Assembly: GCF_002115785.1 (NCBI RefSeq)
Contig: NZ_JFJY01000001.1
Location: 434,001-498,000, forward strand
Direction: 5' to 3'
Source of the DNA: Thalassospira sp. MCCC 1A03138
GTDB lineage: Bacteria > Pseudomonadota > Alphaproteobacteria > Rhodospirillales > Thalassospiraceae
DNA: 64,000 bases
The translations under genes and the position numbers were made by a program. The stretch's first letter is position 1; every line of letters begins with the position of its first letter. The notes below the pieces were generated by a model that had not been told where the DNA came from, searched no databases, and worked only from the letters and a program-made list of their open reading frames with translations. Below, in pieces: positions 1,350 through 53,097 of the stretch.

Positions 1350-3149
1350 ATGAGCGGTATTAATCTCGACAACATCTACGTCGGAGCAAACGGCAGGGTT
1401 CAACTGTCTGGCGGCAGCTCGAACATCGACTTTGTCAATATCGTTGACAAGATGATTGAAGCGCGCCGGATTCCCGCCAAGAATCTGGAAGACAAGATAG
1501 ATGTTAATAAAAATGCTCTGACCTCTCTTAATACAATAAAGTCGCTGACGACCGAGCTCAAGAACGCGCTTTCCACCCTCTATGGTGCGATGAGCTTCGA
1601 CAATTCCAAGGATGCGTTTGAAGCCAAAGGTGTCTATCTAACATCATCCAGCAGTTCGGGAACCGCAACTCCGGCGGCCCAACTTGTTGGCGTAACGGCA
1701 TCAAATGCGACACCGGAAGGGATTTACGAGCTGGAGGTTCAGTCCGTAGCTCAGCGTCAGAAATTCTCGACAGCAACACAGAATATCACCACGTCGGCCG
1801 ACCTGACAGCAGTGACCGGAACGGGTACCTTCACTTTGGGAACAGCCAAAGGCTCGACAACGATTTCGGTCGAAGCTGGCGACTCGATGATTGATATCCG
1901 CGACAAGGTGAATGCCGCCTCCGGAACGACGGGAATTCGTGCAAGTGTCGTCAAAGTCAGCGACACGCAAAGCACCCTTGTTTTTTCGTCTGTTGATGAA
2001 GGTACAGCAAATGCTGTCACCACATTTGAAGATACGACGGGTTCTGTTTTGTCTTCTCTCGGCGTTTTTGACGGCGGAATTTCTGATCCAGAGAATCCTT
2101 TACAACTTGCGCATCAGTCACAAGTGGCATCAGATGCGACTCTGGTAGTTGATGGTGTGACGATCACGCGTTCCAGCAACGATATCAACGACATCATTAC
2201 CGGCGCCAGTATCAATTTGTATGATGCTGAACCCGGAACAACAGTGCGGATTGAAGTTGAGCGTGACCTGAACGCGGCCAAAACAGCTATTTTGGATGTC
2301 GTCGAGGCATATAACGCCTTGCAAACCTTCATCAACGAACAGACCTATGTCGATCCGGTAACGGGCGAAGCTGGTGAAGATGCTTATCTGGTTGGTAATC
2401 CAACCGTTCGAAGCATTCAGCAGCAGTTGAAAACGATGGTGTCGTCGCAAGCTGAAGGTGTTACCAATCGCGGTCCGGATGAAGAAGATTATTCGCTTTT
2501 GGCCGACATCGGCATATCAACAGTGTCCCCTCTGCAAACGGATCCCTATCTGAAGGGCACGCTTGAACTTGATGAAACCAAGCTCAATCAGGCTCTCCTC
2601 TCGGAACCACAAGAAGTCATCGAACTGTTTGGGTTAAAAACGACAACTGATAACCCTAACGTGACGGTTACTGGCTTCAGCGGAAAAGTGCAGGCTGGCA
2701 CGTACGCGTTCAATATCACATCCACCGCAGGCGCCATCACCGGATCAGATGTAGACGGCGTAGCAGGATCGACAGAAACACTCGGCTCGAACAGCGTTTC
2801 GGCGACTGACGCAACCAATGCAAATGGGCTGGTATTGTTGTATAATGGTCCCGATGACGCGACGATTACGGCTAATGTTACAGTCTCCGTCGGTGTTGGA
2901 GCTCAGCTTTTCTTCGGCCTAGAGAAGCTTCTTGACGAGAGTGATGGTATCCTTTCACAAGAAATTGACAAGCTCCAGACTCAGAATGGGTCGTATAGTG
3001 AAAAAGTGACCAAGATTGATGACCGGTTGGCTATCCAGAAGGACAGTCTTCTTACCCAGTTTATCAAAATGGAAGAAGCTCTCGCGCAGATGAAAACGAT
3101 CCAGCAGTCTTTGACCGAAATGATGGCTGCCTCGCAGAAAGACCAATAA
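1350..3149 (+). CDS. fliD: Flagellar hook-associated protein 2 (filament cap)
   Basis: FliD forms the cap at the filament tip that folds incoming flagellin. The 599-residue product has the FliD N-terminal domain (about 25-130, including NIVDKMIEARRIPAKNLEDKI), a central variable region with short Thr/Ala-rich repeats, and the FliD C-terminal domain ending in a long coiled coil (KIDDRLAIQKDSLLTQFIKMEEALAQMKTI, split by position about 555-585). It starts at ATG 1350 behind GGAGTAAGGTT. It is preceded by its own sigma-54 promoter at 1245-1260 and followed 65 bases later by fliS, so fliD-fliS probably form one unit ending at the hairpin near 3792. Confidence 0.95.
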   Translation: MSGINLDNIYVGANGRVQLSGGSSNIDFVNIVDKMIEARRIPAKNLEDKIDVNKNALTSLNTIKSLTTELKNALSTLYGAMSFDNSKDAFEAKGVYLTSSSSSGTATPAAQLVGVTASNATPEGIYELEVQSVAQRQKFSTATQNITTSADLTAVTGTGTFTLGTAKGSTTISVEAGDSMIDIRDKVNAASGTTGIRASVVKVSDTQSTLVFSSVDEGTANAVTTFEDTTGSVLSSLGVFDGGISDPENPLQLAHQSQVASDATLVVDGVTITRSSNDINDIITGASINLYDAEPGTTVRIEVERDLNAAKTAILDVVEAYNALQTFINEQTYVDPVTGEAGEDAYLVGNPTVRSIQQQLKTMVSSQAEGVTNRGPDEEDYSLLADIGISTVSPLQTDPYLKGTLELDETKLNQALLSEPQEVIELFGLKTTTDNPNVTVTGFSGKVQAGTYAFNITSTAGAITGSDVDGVAGSTETLGSNSVSATDATNANGLVLLYNGPDDATITANVTVSVGVGAQLFFGLEKLLDESDGILSQEIDKLQTQNGSYSEKVTKIDDRLAIQKDSLLTQFIKMEEALAQMKTIQQSLTEMMAASQKDQ

Positions 3150-3214
3150 GTACCCGTTTTTATCAGTAGCTATTCTGTCTGATTAAACATGGTGGAAATC
3201 AATAGGAGTATGAC

Positions 3215-3757
3215 ATGAACGGGAATGCGGCCCTGGCTTATAAAGCTCAGCAGGTGAATAGCGCCAACCCGGCGCAGATCGTTTTCATGTTGTATGAAAA
3301 AGCGATTATCCACTTGCGTGACGTGATTGCCAAAGGCGAATCAAAAGATGTAATGGGCCGGTGTGAATCCAACTGTCTGGCGCAGGAAATCATCTTTCAG
3401 CTGATGGACGCGTTGGACCATGAAGCCGCGCCGGACTTTGCAGCCAGAATGGACAAGCTGTACCGATTCTGCATCAATCATCTGGTCTCAATTGATATTG
3501 TGGGCAAAACACAGCCTGCCCAGGATGTCATCGACCTGCTTATTCCCCTCCGGGAAAGCTGGAAACAGCTTGCAGAAAAAAGTTCCGAAGAACTTCGTAT
3601 TGAGATGCGAAAAGCGCACACTTCTCAGCTTAATCAGGCTTTGGGGAATGCTGGTTTCTCCGGCAATGGTTATCAGCCTGCACCACAGCAGAATACTTCC
3701 TACAGCCAGGAACAGGAATCTGTTCCACCACGGACAGGTATTTCTGTGTCCATTTAA
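3215..3757 (+). CDS. fliS: Flagellin export chaperone FliS
   Basis: FliS binds the flagellin C-terminus in the cytoplasm and prevents premature polymerisation. The first ~130 residues are the four-helix FliS domain (AYKAQQVNSANPAQIVFMLYEKAIIHL near the N-terminus). At 180 residues it is longer than usual (~130). The extra C-terminal ~45 residues are Gln/Ser/Pro-rich and look disordered. Start ATG 3215 has a strong AGGAG five to six bases upstream. It follows fliD and is closed by a terminator. Confidence 0.93.
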   Translation: MNGNAALAYKAQQVNSANPAQIVFMLYEKAIIHLRDVIAKGESKDVMGRCESNCLAQEIIFQLMDALDHEAAPDFAARMDKLYRFCINHLVSIDIVGKTQPAQDVIDLLIPLRESWKQLAEKSSEELRIEMRKAHTSQLNQALGNAGFSGNGYQPAPQQNTSYSQEQESVPPRTGISVSI

Positions 3758-3791
3758 TGCCCGCCTCTACGTGTATTCGTTGCGCAGTAAC

Positions 3792-3822
3792 ACACCGCTC
3801 TGTCTTGCAGGGCGGTGTTTTC
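3792..3822 (+). terminator. Rho-independent terminator after fliS
   Basis: Stem ACACCGC (3792-3798) with GCGGTGT (3812-3818), followed by TTTTC. It closes the fliD-fliS unit. Confidence 0.7.
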
Positions 3823-46102: not shown

Positions 46103-46132
46103 GAAGCCAAAGCCCGTCGTGCGTTCCGAAAT

Positions 46133-46170
46133 CAGAAAGCCCCGCACAGCAAACCGTGCGGGGCTTTCTG
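46133..46170 (+). terminator. Hairpin after mscS-family gene
   Basis: Perfect 15-bp stem CAGAAAGCCCCGCAC (46133-46147) / GTGCGGGGCTTTCTG (46156-46170), 8-base loop. The TTTCTG arm gives only a weak T-run. Confidence 0.7.
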
Positions 46171-46186
46171 ATGAGGGCTGACAAAG

Positions 46187-46218
46187 CAAAACGCCCGCTG
46201 TTTCCAGCGGGCGTTTTG
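46187..46218 (-). terminator. Terminator after rpsD
   Basis: 14-bp stem (46187-46200 with 46205-46218, loop TTTC) rich in GC with AAAA/TTTT ends. On the minus strand the TTTTG arm is followed by CTTTGTC. It also faces the mscS hairpin. Confidence 0.8.
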
Positions 46219-46246
46219 TGTTCGTCTTCGCGAAATCCGATAAGGA

Positions 46247-48138: not shown

Positions 48139-48150
48139 TCTGTTTGAGTG

Positions 48151-48258
48151 TGCAGCGCGCCTAGGGTTCCGGTTCCGAAAGGAATGCTGGTCCGAGAGGC
48201 GCAAGCCGGTCAACGTTTCATAGACCGGTGACACGGCGGGCCAAAATCCCGGGAGACA
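48151..48258 (+). promoter_or_regulatory. Guanidine-I riboswitch (ykkC aptamer)
   Basis: The sequence carries the hallmark conserved blocks of the guanidine-I (ykkC) aptamer in order: CTAGGGTTCCGG (48161-48172), CTGGTCCGAGAGGCGC (48187-48202) and ACACGGCGGG...CCCGGGAGA (48231-48256). Helices are visible: GCGCC (48157-48161) with GGCGC (48198-48202); TTCC-GAAA-GGAA (48173-48184); and CCGGTC (48206-48211) with GACCGG (48223-48228). The 3' strand CCGGGAGA (48249-48256) can instead pair with TCTCCCGG (48287-48294), a plausible expression platform. It precedes transporter and guanidine hydrolase genes. Confidence 0.95.
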
Positions 48259-48363
48259 ACTGCACAGGTTTGTCGCGCACAAGCCTTCTCCCGGTTTGTG
48301 TGCAAGAGCCTTTCTTGAATTGACTGATCCGAAGTGATCCGCAAAACAAGCAGGAGCGCACAC

Positions 48364-49434
48364 ATGTTAAAGACGTTTTTTAAAACACTTTCGTTTGCCG
48401 CCGTCCTTTCTGCCTCTCTGGCTTCCCTGCCAGCCCACGCCGAACAAAAGTCCGATTTCAAAGTCTGCTGGTCGATCTATGTCGGCTGGATGCCGTGGGG
48501 GTATCTGCAAGATAGCGGCATCATGAAAAAATGGGCCGATAAGTACGATATCTCGGTCGATATCGTGCAGATCAACGATTACGTTGAATCGATCAACCAA
48601 TATACCGCTGGCGAATATGACGGCTGCTCCATGACCAATATGGACGCGCTTTCGATCCCGGCCGGTGGCGGCGTTGATACCACCGCCCTGATTGTTGGCG
48701 ATTATTCCAACGGCAATGACGGTATCATCCTGAAAGACGCAACCGACCTTGCCGCCATCAAGGGGCAGAATGTCAATCTGGTCGAACTTTCCGTTTCCCA
48801 TTATCTGCTGGCACGCGCCCTTGAGAAAGTAGGTCTGTCCGAACAGGACGTCACCGTCGTCAATACATCCGATGCCGACATGATCGCGACCTATGCCACC
48901 GATGATGTAACATCGGTCGTGACGTGGAACCCGCTTCTGTCGGAAATTGCCGCCAACGATAATGCAACGCTTGTCTTTGACAGTGCGGGAATTCCCGGTG
49001 AAATCATCGATATCATGATGGTCAACACCGAAACCCTTGCCGACAATCCGGCATTTGGCAAAGCACTGGTCGGTGCATGGTATGAACTGATGGGCATCAT
49101 GTCGTCCGACACCGACGAAGGCATTGCCGCACGCACCGCTATGGCCGAAGCATCTGGAACAGACCTTGCCGGATATGACGCCCAGCTTGCCAGCACGGCG
49201 ATGTTCTTTACCCCGGACAAGGCCGTTGAATTCACCAAATCGGCCGAGCTTCCCGAAACCATGAAATTCGTTGCCGAATTCCTGTTCGACAAAGGCATCC
49301 TTGGCGAAGGCGCACCAAGCCCTGAATTTGTCGGCGTCAGCTTCCCGGATGGCAGCATCTATGGCGACAGCACAAATGTGAAGCTGAAATTCGACACGAC
49401 CTATATGGAGATGGCCGCCAAGGGCAAGCTTTGA
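48364..49434 (+). CDS. Guanidine ABC transporter substrate-binding protein (predicted)
   Basis: Periplasmic binding protein of the NitT/TauT-like class (often labelled putative urea ABC transporter). A Sec signal MLKTFFKTLSFAAVLSASLA ends after AHA. The mature protein begins EQKSDFKVCWSIYVGWMPWG, with aromatic residues (W, Y, W) that could form a cation-binding pocket. It lies first after a guanidine-I riboswitch and upstream of a guanidine hydrolase, so guanidine is the likely ligand. ATG 48364 follows AGGAG at 8 bases; the frame is open to 48334. Length 356. Confidence 0.88.
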   Translation: MLKTFFKTLSFAAVLSASLASLPAHAEQKSDFKVCWSIYVGWMPWGYLQDSGIMKKWADKYDISVDIVQINDYVESINQYTAGEYDGCSMTNMDALSIPAGGGVDTTALIVGDYSNGNDGIILKDATDLAAIKGQNVNLVELSVSHYLLARALEKVGLSEQDVTVVNTSDADMIATYATDDVTSVVTWNPLLSEIAANDNATLVFDSAGIPGEIIDIMMVNTETLADNPAFGKALVGAWYELMGIMSSDTDEGIAARTAMAEASGTDLAGYDAQLASTAMFFTPDKAVEFTKSAELPETMKFVAEFLFDKGILGEGAPSPEFVGVSFPDGSIYGDSTNVKLKFDTTYMEMAAKGKL

Positions 49435-49600
49435 AACCGTGTATTCGCCACGCCACCACGCGCTTCGCGGATTAACTCTGTCGGCCATTTGGCCTTGTAA
49501 CATTCGTTGCACCAGTTGCATCAGGTTCGGATGGCCGACCTTTCAGATTTTTGCCCCGTCTTGACCACTGCCCCGTTTTTGCAATTGCAAGGTGACGGCC

Positions 49601-50422
49601 ATGCGTATCATCAATCGCACCCTTTCCCGGCGCGCAGCCATATTGCTGGGCTCGATCCCGTTTGCGCTTTTGATCGGAGCCTATGCCATCGCAAGCCATC
49701 TGCGCCGGATCGATAATCCGGCGGATAAGCTGTTGCCGTCGCTTAGCAGCATGGGGGATGCGATCTGGCGCATGGGGTTTGAGGCCGACAAACGGTCGGG
49801 CGATTATCTGCTGTGGCTTGATACGGTCGATAGCCTGTCGCGCCTTGCGGTTGGCATTTTCATTTCCACCATGCTTGCCGTCGGGCTTGGTATTTCCATC
49901 GGCTTCATTCCGCACATCAGGCGCGGTCTGGCGCCCTTTGTCGCCACCCTGTCCCTGATCCCGCCAATCACCATCCTGCCGATTCTGTTCATCATTTTCG
50001 GATTGGGCGAGACTTCCAAAGTAATGCTGATCGCGATTGGCACCGCCCCGGTCATGATCAGGACTATCGCGCAAGCGGTGATGGATATTCCGCGCGAACT
50101 GATCATCAAGGCCGAAACGCTGGGTGCATCAACATGGCAAATGATCACCCGTGTAGTACTGCCGCAAGTCATGCCCAAACTGATCACCGCCATCCGGCTT
50201 GGCCTTGTCCCGGCATGGATATTCCTGATTTCGGCCGAAGCCATCGCATCCACGAGCGGCCTTGGCTATCGCATCTTTCTGGTGCGCCGTTACCTCGCGA
50301 TGGATGTGATCCTGCCTTATGTAGCCTGGATCACGCTTCTGGCCTTTATTCTTGACCAGTTGCTGTTGATGGCATCGCGCAAGGCGTTCCCTTGGAACCA
50401 CCTTTCGGGGGATAGTCTGTGA
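49601..50422 (+). CDS. Guanidine ABC transporter permease (predicted)
   Basis: A 273-residue permease with about six membrane helices and the EAA loop IKAETLGASTWQMITRVVLP. It fits the TauC/SsuC-type permeases. The first helix is AAILLGSIPFALLIGAYAIA. ATG 49601 is chosen since AAGGTGA lies 6 bases upstream. It lies between the binding-protein and ATPase genes, its stop overlapping the ATPase start by one base. Specificity is inferred only from the operon. Confidence 0.9.
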   Translation: MRIINRTLSRRAAILLGSIPFALLIGAYAIASHLRRIDNPADKLLPSLSSMGDAIWRMGFEADKRSGDYLLWLDTVDSLSRLAVGIFISTMLAVGLGISIGFIPHIRRGLAPFVATLSLIPPITILPILFIIFGLGETSKVMLIAIGTAPVMIRTIAQAVMDIPRELIIKAETLGASTWQMITRVVLPQVMPKLITAIRLGLVPAWIFLISAEAIASTSGLGYRIFLVRRYLAMDVILPYVAWITLLAFILDQLLLMASRKAFPWNHLSGDSL

Positions 50423-51240
50423 TGCGCGACCCAAAATTCATGATCCGCAACCTGACCAAGTCTTACGGCGAATATCCGGTGCTTGAACGCATCAATCTGG
50501 ATATCGAAGCCGGGGCGTTTTGCACGCTGGTCGGGGCATCGGGCTGTGGCAAATCGACCTTCTTGCGCATGCTGCTGTCCCAGGAACTGCCAAGTGGCGG
50601 CGATATCCTGATGGATGGCGCACCACTGCCGCAACAACCCACCCCTGATCGCGGCATTGTCTTTCAACGCTATTCGGTTTTTCCGCATCTGACCGTTGCT
50701 GAAAACCTGATCATCGGCGCGGAATTTGCCGCCCGCAAACTGACCGGTCGCCTGTTTGGCCGCGCGCGCAAAAAGGCCCGAGACGATGTTGCCGAACTGC
50801 TTGAAACCATAGGCCTTTCGCCTGCCGCCAACAAATATCCCAGCCAGCTTTCGGGCGGCATGCAGCAACGCCTTGCCATTGCGCAGGCCCTGACGATGAA
50901 GCCCGGCGTGCTGTTACTCGACGAGCCATTTGGCGCGCTTGATCCGGGCATTCGCAACGACATGCATGAATTGCTGCTGGGCCTTTGGAAGACGCATGAC
51001 ATGACAATATTCATGGTCACGCACGACATCCACGAGGCGTTCAAACTCGGCACCCGGATGCTGGTATTTGACAAGCTGCGCGATGATCCGGTCACACCCG
51101 AATCCTATGGTGCAACCATCACATATGACCTGCCGATTGACCTGTCTGTCGCACCGGTTCCCGGTGCCAATGGCGAAACCGATGAAACCGACGGCATGAA
51201 TTTTTCGACCGCTCTGATGGCGACCATGCCCGTTCCCTGA
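50422..51240 (+). CDS. Guanidine ABC transporter ATP-binding protein (predicted)
   Basis: ATPase subunit of 272 residues. Walker A is GASGCGKSTF (about 38-47), Q-loop GIVFQRYSVFPHL, signature LSGGMQQRLAIAQAL, Walker B VLLLDEPFGALDP, and the switch His is in FMVTHDIHEAF. A C-terminal ~50-residue extension (LRDDPVTPESYGATITYDLP) is typical of this transporter subgroup. It starts at ATG 50422, overlapping the permease stop as TGATG; GTG 50419 is also possible. Confidence 0.92.
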   Translation: MRDPKFMIRNLTKSYGEYPVLERINLDIEAGAFCTLVGASGCGKSTFLRMLLSQELPSGGDILMDGAPLPQQPTPDRGIVFQRYSVFPHLTVAENLIIGAEFAARKLTGRLFGRARKKARDDVAELLETIGLSPAANKYPSQLSGGMQQRLAIAQALTMKPGVLLLDEPFGALDPGIRNDMHELLLGLWKTHDMTIFMVTHDIHEAFKLGTRMLVFDKLRDDPVTPESYGATITYDLPIDLSVAPVPGANGETDETDGMNFSTALMATMPVP

Positions 51241-51295: not shown

Positions 51296-52534
51296 ATGCG
51301 CGATTTCTTTGCCCCCCAAAATGTCCGCCGACATCGCGTGGCCGGAACATTGCCAGCCCCCGCCACAACCCGCCACCACCACCCGAATTTCGACAAGCTG
51401 CAATTGCGCGGCTGGAAATCGGCGGAAAAAGAAGCCCTGCTGCCATCAGCCGCTTGGGAAAAGGAAAAGCAGTGGGCGCTTCGCATGGGTCTGACCGGGT
51501 CCGATTGCCTGACTGATAAATCAATCCCGACCTTTGCCCGGGGGGAATTGCCCCATTATGCCGGGATCAATACCTTTCTGAAAGCGCCCTATATCGAAGA
51601 CGTTACCAAGGTCGGTGCCTATGACGCGGCGGTCATAGGCATCCCGTTTGATGGCGGCACGACATACCGGCCCGGCACGCGTTTTGGCCCGCAGGGGGTT
51701 CGCAAGATATCCGCCCTTTACACGCCCTATAACTATGAAATGGGGGTCGATCTTCGCGAACAGATGACGCTGTGCGATGTGGGCGATGTTTTCACCATCC
51801 CGGCCAATATCGAAAAGACCTTTGACCAGATCACGCGCGCGGTCAGTCACGTCGCATCCAGCGGCGCGCTGCCGATCATGATCGGTGGTGATCACTCCAT
51901 CGGCTTCCCCTGCGTGCGCGGCATTGCCCAATGCACATCCAAACGCATCGGCATCGTGCATTTCGACCGCCATATCGACATTCAGGAAAAGGACCTTGAT
52001 GAACGCATGCACACCACGCCGTGGTTCCATGCCACTGATCTGGTCAATGTTCCGGCGGTGAACCTTGTGCAGGTCGGCATTGGCGGCTGGCAGGTCCCGC
52101 GCGAAGGGGTCGAAGTTGCGCGCAATCGCAATACCAACATCTTCACCATGCGCGATGTCGAGGAACTCGGACTTGCCGAAACCGCGGCACGCGCGCTTGA
52201 ACTGGCATGGAAGGATGCTGATGCTGTCTATATCTCGTTTGATATAGACAGTGTTGATTGCGGGTTCGTTCCGGGCACCGGCTGGCCGGAACCTGGCGGC
52301 TTCCTGCCGCGCGAGGCACTGGAACTTGTATCGCTCGTCGCCGCCGAAGGCATTTGCGGGCTTGAGGTCGTTGAGGTTTCCCCGCCCTATGACTGTTCGG
52401 ACATTACCGCCCTGCTGGCAACGCGCGTGATTGTCGATGTGCTGGGCACACTGGTGTCGCACGGCAAAATGGGATCGCATCGCGGCATCATCGACAAACC
52501 GGTAAGCATCCCCGCCGGCCCGGATGTGGAGTAA
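51296..52534 (+). CDS. gdmH: Nickel-dependent guanidine hydrolase (GdmH type, arginase superfamily)
   Basis: Ureohydrolase-fold enzyme predicted to split guanidine into urea and ammonium. The metal ligands of the superfamily are H200 in GGDHS, D224/H226/D228 in HFDRHID and D316/D318 in SFDID. The stretch after it, IQEKDLDERMHTTPWFHATD, and GTGWPEPGG (327-335) match the GdmH group (Synechocystis Sll1077) rather than agmatinases. An N-terminal extension (~90 residues, with RHHHP) is also typical of GdmH. Start ATG 51296 follows AAGGA. It lies in a riboswitch-controlled operon with a transporter. Annotation pipelines usually call it agmatinase. Confidence 0.9.
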   Translation: MRDFFAPQNVRRHRVAGTLPAPATTRHHHPNFDKLQLRGWKSAEKEALLPSAAWEKEKQWALRMGLTGSDCLTDKSIPTFARGELPHYAGINTFLKAPYIEDVTKVGAYDAAVIGIPFDGGTTYRPGTRFGPQGVRKISALYTPYNYEMGVDLREQMTLCDVGDVFTIPANIEKTFDQITRAVSHVASSGALPIMIGGDHSIGFPCVRGIAQCTSKRIGIVHFDRHIDIQEKDLDERMHTTPWFHATDLVNVPAVNLVQVGIGGWQVPREGVEVARNRNTNIFTMRDVEELGLAETAARALELAWKDADAVYISFDIDSVDCGFVPGTGWPEPGGFLPREALELVSLVAAEGICGLEVVEVSPPYDCSDITALLATRVIVDVLGTLVSHGKMGSHRGIIDKPVSIPAGPDVE

Positions 52535-52538
52535 CCCG

Positions 52539-53063
52539 ATGCCCCATGATCATCCCCACACCCACACGCATCATCAACATGATCACGACCACCATCATCA
52601 TGATGTCGGGCACAACCACTCACACGGACCGGGGCATAATCACGCCCCGGACCACGATCACCTGCATTCGCATGTCCATGGCCAAAGTGACGCCGACCAT
52701 GCCGAAGAATTACAGGTCCTGTCCTCAAGCTTCGTCGAAGGCTTCCGCAAGGCCGATGACAAGGCAAGCTACCTTCGCCTTGCCGACATCCCGTTTCAAA
52801 AGACTGGCAAGGATGGCCTGACCATGCATCTGGTCGATGCCAAAATCACCACGCACTGGCAAATCGGCACCGCCTGCCCGGCCTTTGCCACCCGCGAACT
52901 GGCCTATCTGCCGTTCCCCGGCAGCATGATCGAGGAACGCGAAACCATGACATTTACCTATGTGTCGATGACCGAACGCGCCGATATCGACCTGCTAAGC
53001 TTCATGGCCGAACGCTTCGGACATGCGCACAATCATGACCACCTGCATCACCATCACAGCTAA
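52539..53063 (+). CDS. Histidine-rich protein, candidate nickel chaperone/store
   Basis: A 174-residue cytosolic protein. About 22 of the first 47 residues are His, interspersed with Asp, Asn, Gly and Pro. The last 14 residues again hold eight His (HAHNHDHLHHHH). The core (~55-160) has FVEGFRKADDKASYLRLADI and GTACPAFATRELAYLPFPGS, with one Cys; I recognise no known family. It has neither the zinc Cys pairs of HypA nor the P-loop of HypB. Position at the end of the operon and His content suggest nickel delivery to, or storage for, GdmH. It starts at ATG 52539 with GGAG upstream, 4 bases after gdmH. A terminator follows. Confidence 0.8.
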   Translation: MPHDHPHTHTHHQHDHDHHHHDVGHNHSHGPGHNHAPDHDHLHSHVHGQSDADHAEELQVLSSSFVEGFRKADDKASYLRLADIPFQKTGKDGLTMHLVDAKITTHWQIGTACPAFATRELAYLPFPGSMIEERETMTFTYVSMTERADIDLLSFMAERFGHAHNHDHLHHHHS

Positions 53064-53069
53064 AACAAT

Positions 53070-53097
53070 AAGGGCGCGGATCAAACCGCGCCCTTTT
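53070..53097 (+). terminator. Terminator of the guanidine operon
   Basis: Stem AAGGGCGCGG (53070-53079) / CCGCGCCCTT (53086-53095), 6-base loop, followed by TT. It may also serve cimA on the other strand. Confidence 0.85.

Follow-up and report, generated by a model that had tools for sequence, protein, structure and literature searches.

A histidine-rich protein dedicated to guanidine hydrolase in Alphaproteobacteria is a candidate nickel metallochaperone

The stretch of DNA analyzed here, a 64-kb window of the Thalassospira sp. MCCC 1A03138 genome, contains a guanidine operon that opens with a riboswitch, continues with genes for an ABC transporter and for the arginase-family enzyme GdmH, and closes with a gene for a histidine-rich protein (Table 1). 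Four bases separate the GdmH stop codon (52532–52534) from the ATG of the His-rich protein gene, and the strong hairpin that follows its stop codon indicates that the operon ends here. The Guanidine-I riboswitch is also present in 8 of 10 homologous loci. In four homologous loci (L033, L042, L048 and L069, ~2150–3800), about 1–1.7 kb of extra DNA, perhaps an added gene, lies between the substrate-binding gene and the permease. Elsewhere in the window (46126–46227), two neighboring GC-rich hairpins give sub-threshold matches to Rfam leaders and resemble ordinary terminators between genes.

Table 1 Features of the guanidine operon and of the His-rich protein, in window coordinates.
Feature	Position	Strand	Basis or remark
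Guanidine-I riboswitch (RF00442)	48150..48257	+	78 bits against a gathering threshold of 63
ABC substrate-binding protein	48334..49434	+	TIGR03427, 550 bits; family label putative urea, substrate here probably guanidine
ABC transporter permease	49592..50422	+	Domain match
ABC transporter ATPase, predicted guanidine importer	50419..51240	+	Domain match
gdmH, predicted Ni-dependent guanidine hydrolase, arginase family	51296..52534	+	PF00491; PDB 7esr/7oi1, 9fek
His-rich protein gene, 174 aa	52539..53063	+	Last gene of the guanidine operon; subject of this analysis
N-terminal His-rich disordered arm, residues 1–48	52539..52682	+	Alignment counts; AF2 pLDDT ~48–57
Conserved motif GHNH...DHLHSHVH, residues 32–47			C-terminal part of the N-terminal His arm
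Folded core, ~residues 49–161	52683..53021	+	Two helices, then five to six strands and a final helix
C-terminal His tail, residues 162–174	53022..53060	+	Few relatives have one
Terminator-like hairpin closing the operon	53070..53095	.	Strong; common to the convergent gene

The gene directly upstream very probably encodes GdmH, as its product scores 537 bits against Synechocystis GdmH (PDB 7esr/7oi1) and 527 bits against the Nitrospira inopinata guanidinase (9fek), whereas no other ureohydrolase in the PDB exceeds 177 bits. The metal ligands H200, D224, H226, D228, D316 and D318 are invariant in the alignment, as are T122/T123 and W330, which correspond to the specificity residues named for guanidinases (PMC11410670) and were mapped onto the window enzyme by reading the printed alignment. 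In characterized cases GdmH is a nickel enzyme (PMC12186494, PMC11271267).

The composition of the neighboring protein is extreme. Our recount agrees with the initial annotation of this region, with 22 histidines in residues 1–47 and eight in the last 14 on either side of a core of about 100 residues; there are 33 in total, and residues 49–160 hold only three. Across the 36 long ORFs of the window histidine makes up 1.8% of residues and no 47-residue stretch contains more than eight, so that the count in the N-terminal arm (binomial probability ~3e-26 against this background) is not attributable to chance. An alternative in-frame ATG lies upstream at 52524; we prefer the start at 52539 because many homologues begin at the equivalent position (MPHD). 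The core evolves under purifying selection (dN/dS of ~0.14–0.21 against four homologues), which together with its broad conservation rules out a spurious reading frame, and on the opposite strand of 52539–53063 stops interrupt the frame examined and no competing recognized gene was seen.

To characterize the family we used the core alone to scan a genome collection holding one genome per species (84,980 species), which returned 244 relatives, of which the best 80 were kept. Directly N-terminal of the core, HNH is present in 78, LHSH in 79 and HLHSH in 77 of these 80 homologues. Histidine counts in the arm range between 6 and 28, with some members having just 6–8. A C-terminal tail with at least three histidines occurs in 5 of 80. 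The earlier emphasis on histidines at both ends thus holds for the N-terminal side only: the conserved feature is HNH...HLHSH beside the core, and the C-terminal tail is a local embellishment.

Profile and structure searches place the core in no known enzyme family, as the initial annotation had supposed, and on no clear solved fold. The full 174-residue protein has no match in Pfam at E ≤ 1 and none in NCBIfam, a search of 60 homologous cores against both databases yields nothing above noise (best E of 0.013, to unrelated names), and no significant relative is found among PDB sequences. The AlphaFold2 model of the full-length protein shows a confident core block (pLDDT mostly 86–98, falling to ~62–70 around residues 111–130) made of two helices, strands and a final helix, with both His arms disordered. 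Fold searches with the full-length and a core-only model gave best Foldseek E values of 0.13–0.18 against PDB folds and VIA-align Z scores of at most 3.0, and matches this weak or absent remain compatible with a shared fold; those to COMMD, tudor and Pur-alpha-like folds (Z ≤ 3.0) were taken as noise. Phages gave no match, and a phage origin was dropped.

Families of known nickel helpers were sought individually. The HypA Pfam domain PF01155 is absent from the protein (E ≤ 1) and from the 60 homologous cores (E ≤ 0.5), the sequence begins MPHDH rather than with the MHE start of HypA, and CxxC occurs in none of the 80 homologues. As noted at the outset, the protein also lacks the zinc-site cysteine pairs, having a single cysteine, and the P-loop of HypB/UreG (no GxxxxGK[ST] and no PF02492 match). 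There is no Pfam match to UreE_N or UreE_C in the protein or the 60 homologues, and none to the CooJ family in NCBIfam or Pfam, a comparison made through these database families. By these searches the core represents a new protein family, most likely one that performs a known kind of job.

The association of this family with gdmH is strict, two broken copies apart. All of the best 80 of the 244 relatives have gdmH directly upstream, and in 77 the partner starts between −60 and +40 nt relative to the gdmH stop codon. The 80 loci span Thalassospira, Roseibium/Labrenzia, Hoeflea, Devosia, many Rhodobacterales and others; the dedicated role first suggested by the 4-base gap is in this respect borne out. 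On plasmids, all seven core-bearing records also carry GdmH, and the two genes are adjacent in each of the four that were opened. In genome samples drawn regardless of either gene, core and GdmH occupy the identical 7 genomes of a Pseudomonadota sample (n = 398) and the identical 6 of 29 congeneric genomes, and among 385 Alphaproteobacteria 12 genomes have GdmH, 13 have the core and 11 have both (Fisher p of 1.6e-18, a guide only, as related genomes are not independent). Long open frames that resembled core–GdmH fusions at some high-GC loci were rejected as other-frame read-through over gdmH.

The exceptions are few. The single GdmH without the core among the 385 Alphaproteobacteria is a more divergent enzyme in a different gene context. 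At L108:8028–9428 (genome G137), a divergent, partnerless GdmH-like enzyme carries its own His-rich insertion, HHDHSHMHD, and lies near glutamate-synthase-like genes. Homologues of the core apart from gdmH, which would have spoken against the initial reading, amount to two broken copies. One (L109:7100–7348, genome G183) is an N-terminally truncated fragment, probably a remnant, that follows a DUF3299/ABC ATPase/FtsX permease cluster with no gdmH; in the other (L110:7465–9035, genome G421) the gene for the guanidine substrate-binding protein is truncated and continues straight into the core, and the permease, ATPase and gdmH could have been deleted or lost to an assembly error. Four actinobacterial GdmH loci have no partner protein nearby; not every GdmH, then, comes with one. 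Dedication of the His-rich protein to GdmH is well supported; such co-occurrence within one operon shows a shared function, and not which function it is.

The enzyme itself may carry a trace of the partnership. The N-terminal extension of the window GdmH contains HHPNF (51371–51391), and HHP[DN][FLYM] is found in this extension in 77 of 80 partner-bearing loci, the remaining three being cut at a contig end. We regard the extension as a candidate docking or relay element, an idea weakened by the similar HHHPE in the GdmH of Rubrobacter indicoceani, which has no partner protein; the case for the motif as a strict marker of the partner is weakened for the same reason.

We also surveyed other nickel helpers. 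A cyanobacterial operon of the same kind contains hypA and hypB alongside ABC transporter genes (PMC8390497), and activation of cyanobacterial GdmH makes use of HypA/HypB (PMC11271267, PMC12186494). HypA was undetected anywhere in 16 of 22 genomes that carry GdmH and the His-rich protein, and in the other six its coordinates place it well away from gdmH or on a different contig, never beside it; the co-occurrence check proposed in the initial annotation thus came out in favor of its reading. HypB exceeds the cut-off in 5 of 22 carriers, not near gdmH, and the window's own genome has no HypA and no HypB over the cut-off. UreE is present in all 22 carriers, which fits a route from guanidine through urea to ammonia, and a UreG-like GTPase in all carriers tested; either might supply GdmH instead. 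A HupE/UreJ nickel permease gene directly follows in two lineages (Sinorhizobium fredii and genome G588), and hupE also comes after the genes of the nickel-dependent metformin hydrolase (PMC11399263). The N. inopinata guanidinase is apparently functional with no known chaperone (PMC11410670), which indicates that a chaperone is not always required.

From this evidence we propose that the His-rich protein is probably an NTPase-free nickel metallochaperone, a maturation factor dedicated to GdmH that acts in place of HypA/HypB. The nickel role follows from the richness in histidine, the nickel dependence of GdmH relatives and the operon context, including HupE at some loci. Of the new nickel chaperone originally put forward, the dedication to GdmH stands firmly, whereas nickel and chaperone activity, comprising nickel binding, docking on GdmH, nickel transfer and the ability to work without UreG or any other NTPase, are what we infer. 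Binding of guanidine to the riboswitch would cause the importer, GdmH and the His-rich protein to be produced together; the disordered arm would then collect Ni(II), and the conserved GHNH...HLHSH segment beside the core may be where the metal is handed over. Docking of the folded core on GdmH, perhaps at the conserved N-terminal extension, would let Ni(II) enter the binuclear site. A single polypeptide without an NTPase would in this way do the job of the HypA/HypB-like GhaA/GhaB of cyanobacterial GdmH.

This arrangement resembles known systems in part. GhaA/GhaB of Synechocystis GdmH and HypA/HypB (MetAB) of metformin hydrolase belong to the same kind of ureohydrolase operon, the former sharing both riboswitch and ABC transporter with the operon in the window, and they load, or are proposed to load, nickel into an arginase-family enzyme as proposed here. 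Unlike these pairs, the His-rich protein is a single protein with no P-loop GTPase, MHE start or zinc CxxC pairs, and no sequence relation to them was detected. CooJ of Rhodospirillum rubrum is likewise small, with one His-rich end, and encoded in a nickel-enzyme operon; its C-terminal domain has 16 histidines, and it binds four nickel ions (PMC6006190). However, the main arm of the His-rich protein is N-terminal, the partner enzyme differs, and CooJ acts beside the ATPase CooC while the window operon has no NTPase of that kind. UreE is a nickel chaperone dedicated to one enzyme, and in some species its tail is rich in histidine (PMC7055735). The proposed one-enzyme chaperone with a His-rich end is similar in both respects, yet it has no UreE Pfam match, its arm is N-terminal, and the window genome has a separate UreE. 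The nickel-binding Hpn and Hpn-like proteins of Helicobacter are also very rich in histidine. They are storage proteins not known to have a comparable core, in contrast to the conserved folded core and tie to gdmH seen in this family.

The His-rich protein could nevertheless store nickel rather than deliver it. An arm that holds Ni(II) as a buffer for the whole guanidine–urease pathway, serving GdmH and urease with no specific transfer to GdmH, much as Hpn does in Helicobacter, would explain why its histidine number varies so freely (6–28), and the UreE found in all 22 carriers indicates that the urease pathway is present as well. We consider this unlikely, as a conserved core of ~100 residues under purifying selection and the strict restriction to gdmH-bearing genomes both argue for a GdmH-specific function, and the arms of some members are short. 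In a second reading the core binds GdmH as an accessory subunit or assembly/stability factor, acting in hexamer assembly or regulation with the His arm secondary. In its favor, the core is conserved but bears no metal-site signature, its linkage to gdmH is invariant, the HHP motif of the GdmH extension occurs in all 77 partner-bearing loci that include this region, and the N-terminal extension of the N. inopinata enzyme packs against a neighboring subunit (PMC11410670). This too seems quite unlikely, since it explains neither the near-universal HNH...LHSH motif nor why the operon lacks HypA/HypB, and an HHP-like motif also occurs in the partnerless R. indicoceani GdmH.

The metal itself is a further question. 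Histidine tracts are not specific for nickel, and arms of this kind bind Zn, Co and Cu as well. Accordingly, the protein might be a metallochaperone for another metal (Mn, Zn or Co), given that the N. inopinata guanidinase holds one nickel and one manganese (PMC11410670), or one link in a UreG-/UreE-dependent chain, for which the UreG-like GTPases in all carriers tested would be available. We find these readings very unlikely, because the characterized relatives are nickel-dependent and served by nickel chaperones (PMC12186494, PMC11271267), and the next gene in two lineages encodes the HupE nickel permease.

A dedicated, NTPase-free nickel metallochaperone thus remains our preferred reading. 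The wider claim, that these proteins form a metallochaperone family with a new fold, able on their own and with no NTPase to load nickel into a binuclear ureohydrolase, and that they have displaced HypA/HypB from an alphaproteobacterial guanidine operon that is otherwise conserved, is tentative, and we hold it somewhat more doubtful than probable. How guanidinases without HypA/HypB-like helpers acquire nickel is an explicit open point for comammox bacteria (PMC11410670), and the core family makes this question directly testable in Alphaproteobacteria. The system is compact and can be co-expressed, as gdmH and the His-rich protein gene with or without hupE, and the HNH...HLHSH motif can be mutated. 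If the proposed role is correct, the protein might also improve the recombinant loading of guanidinases for the clean-up of guanidine compounds.
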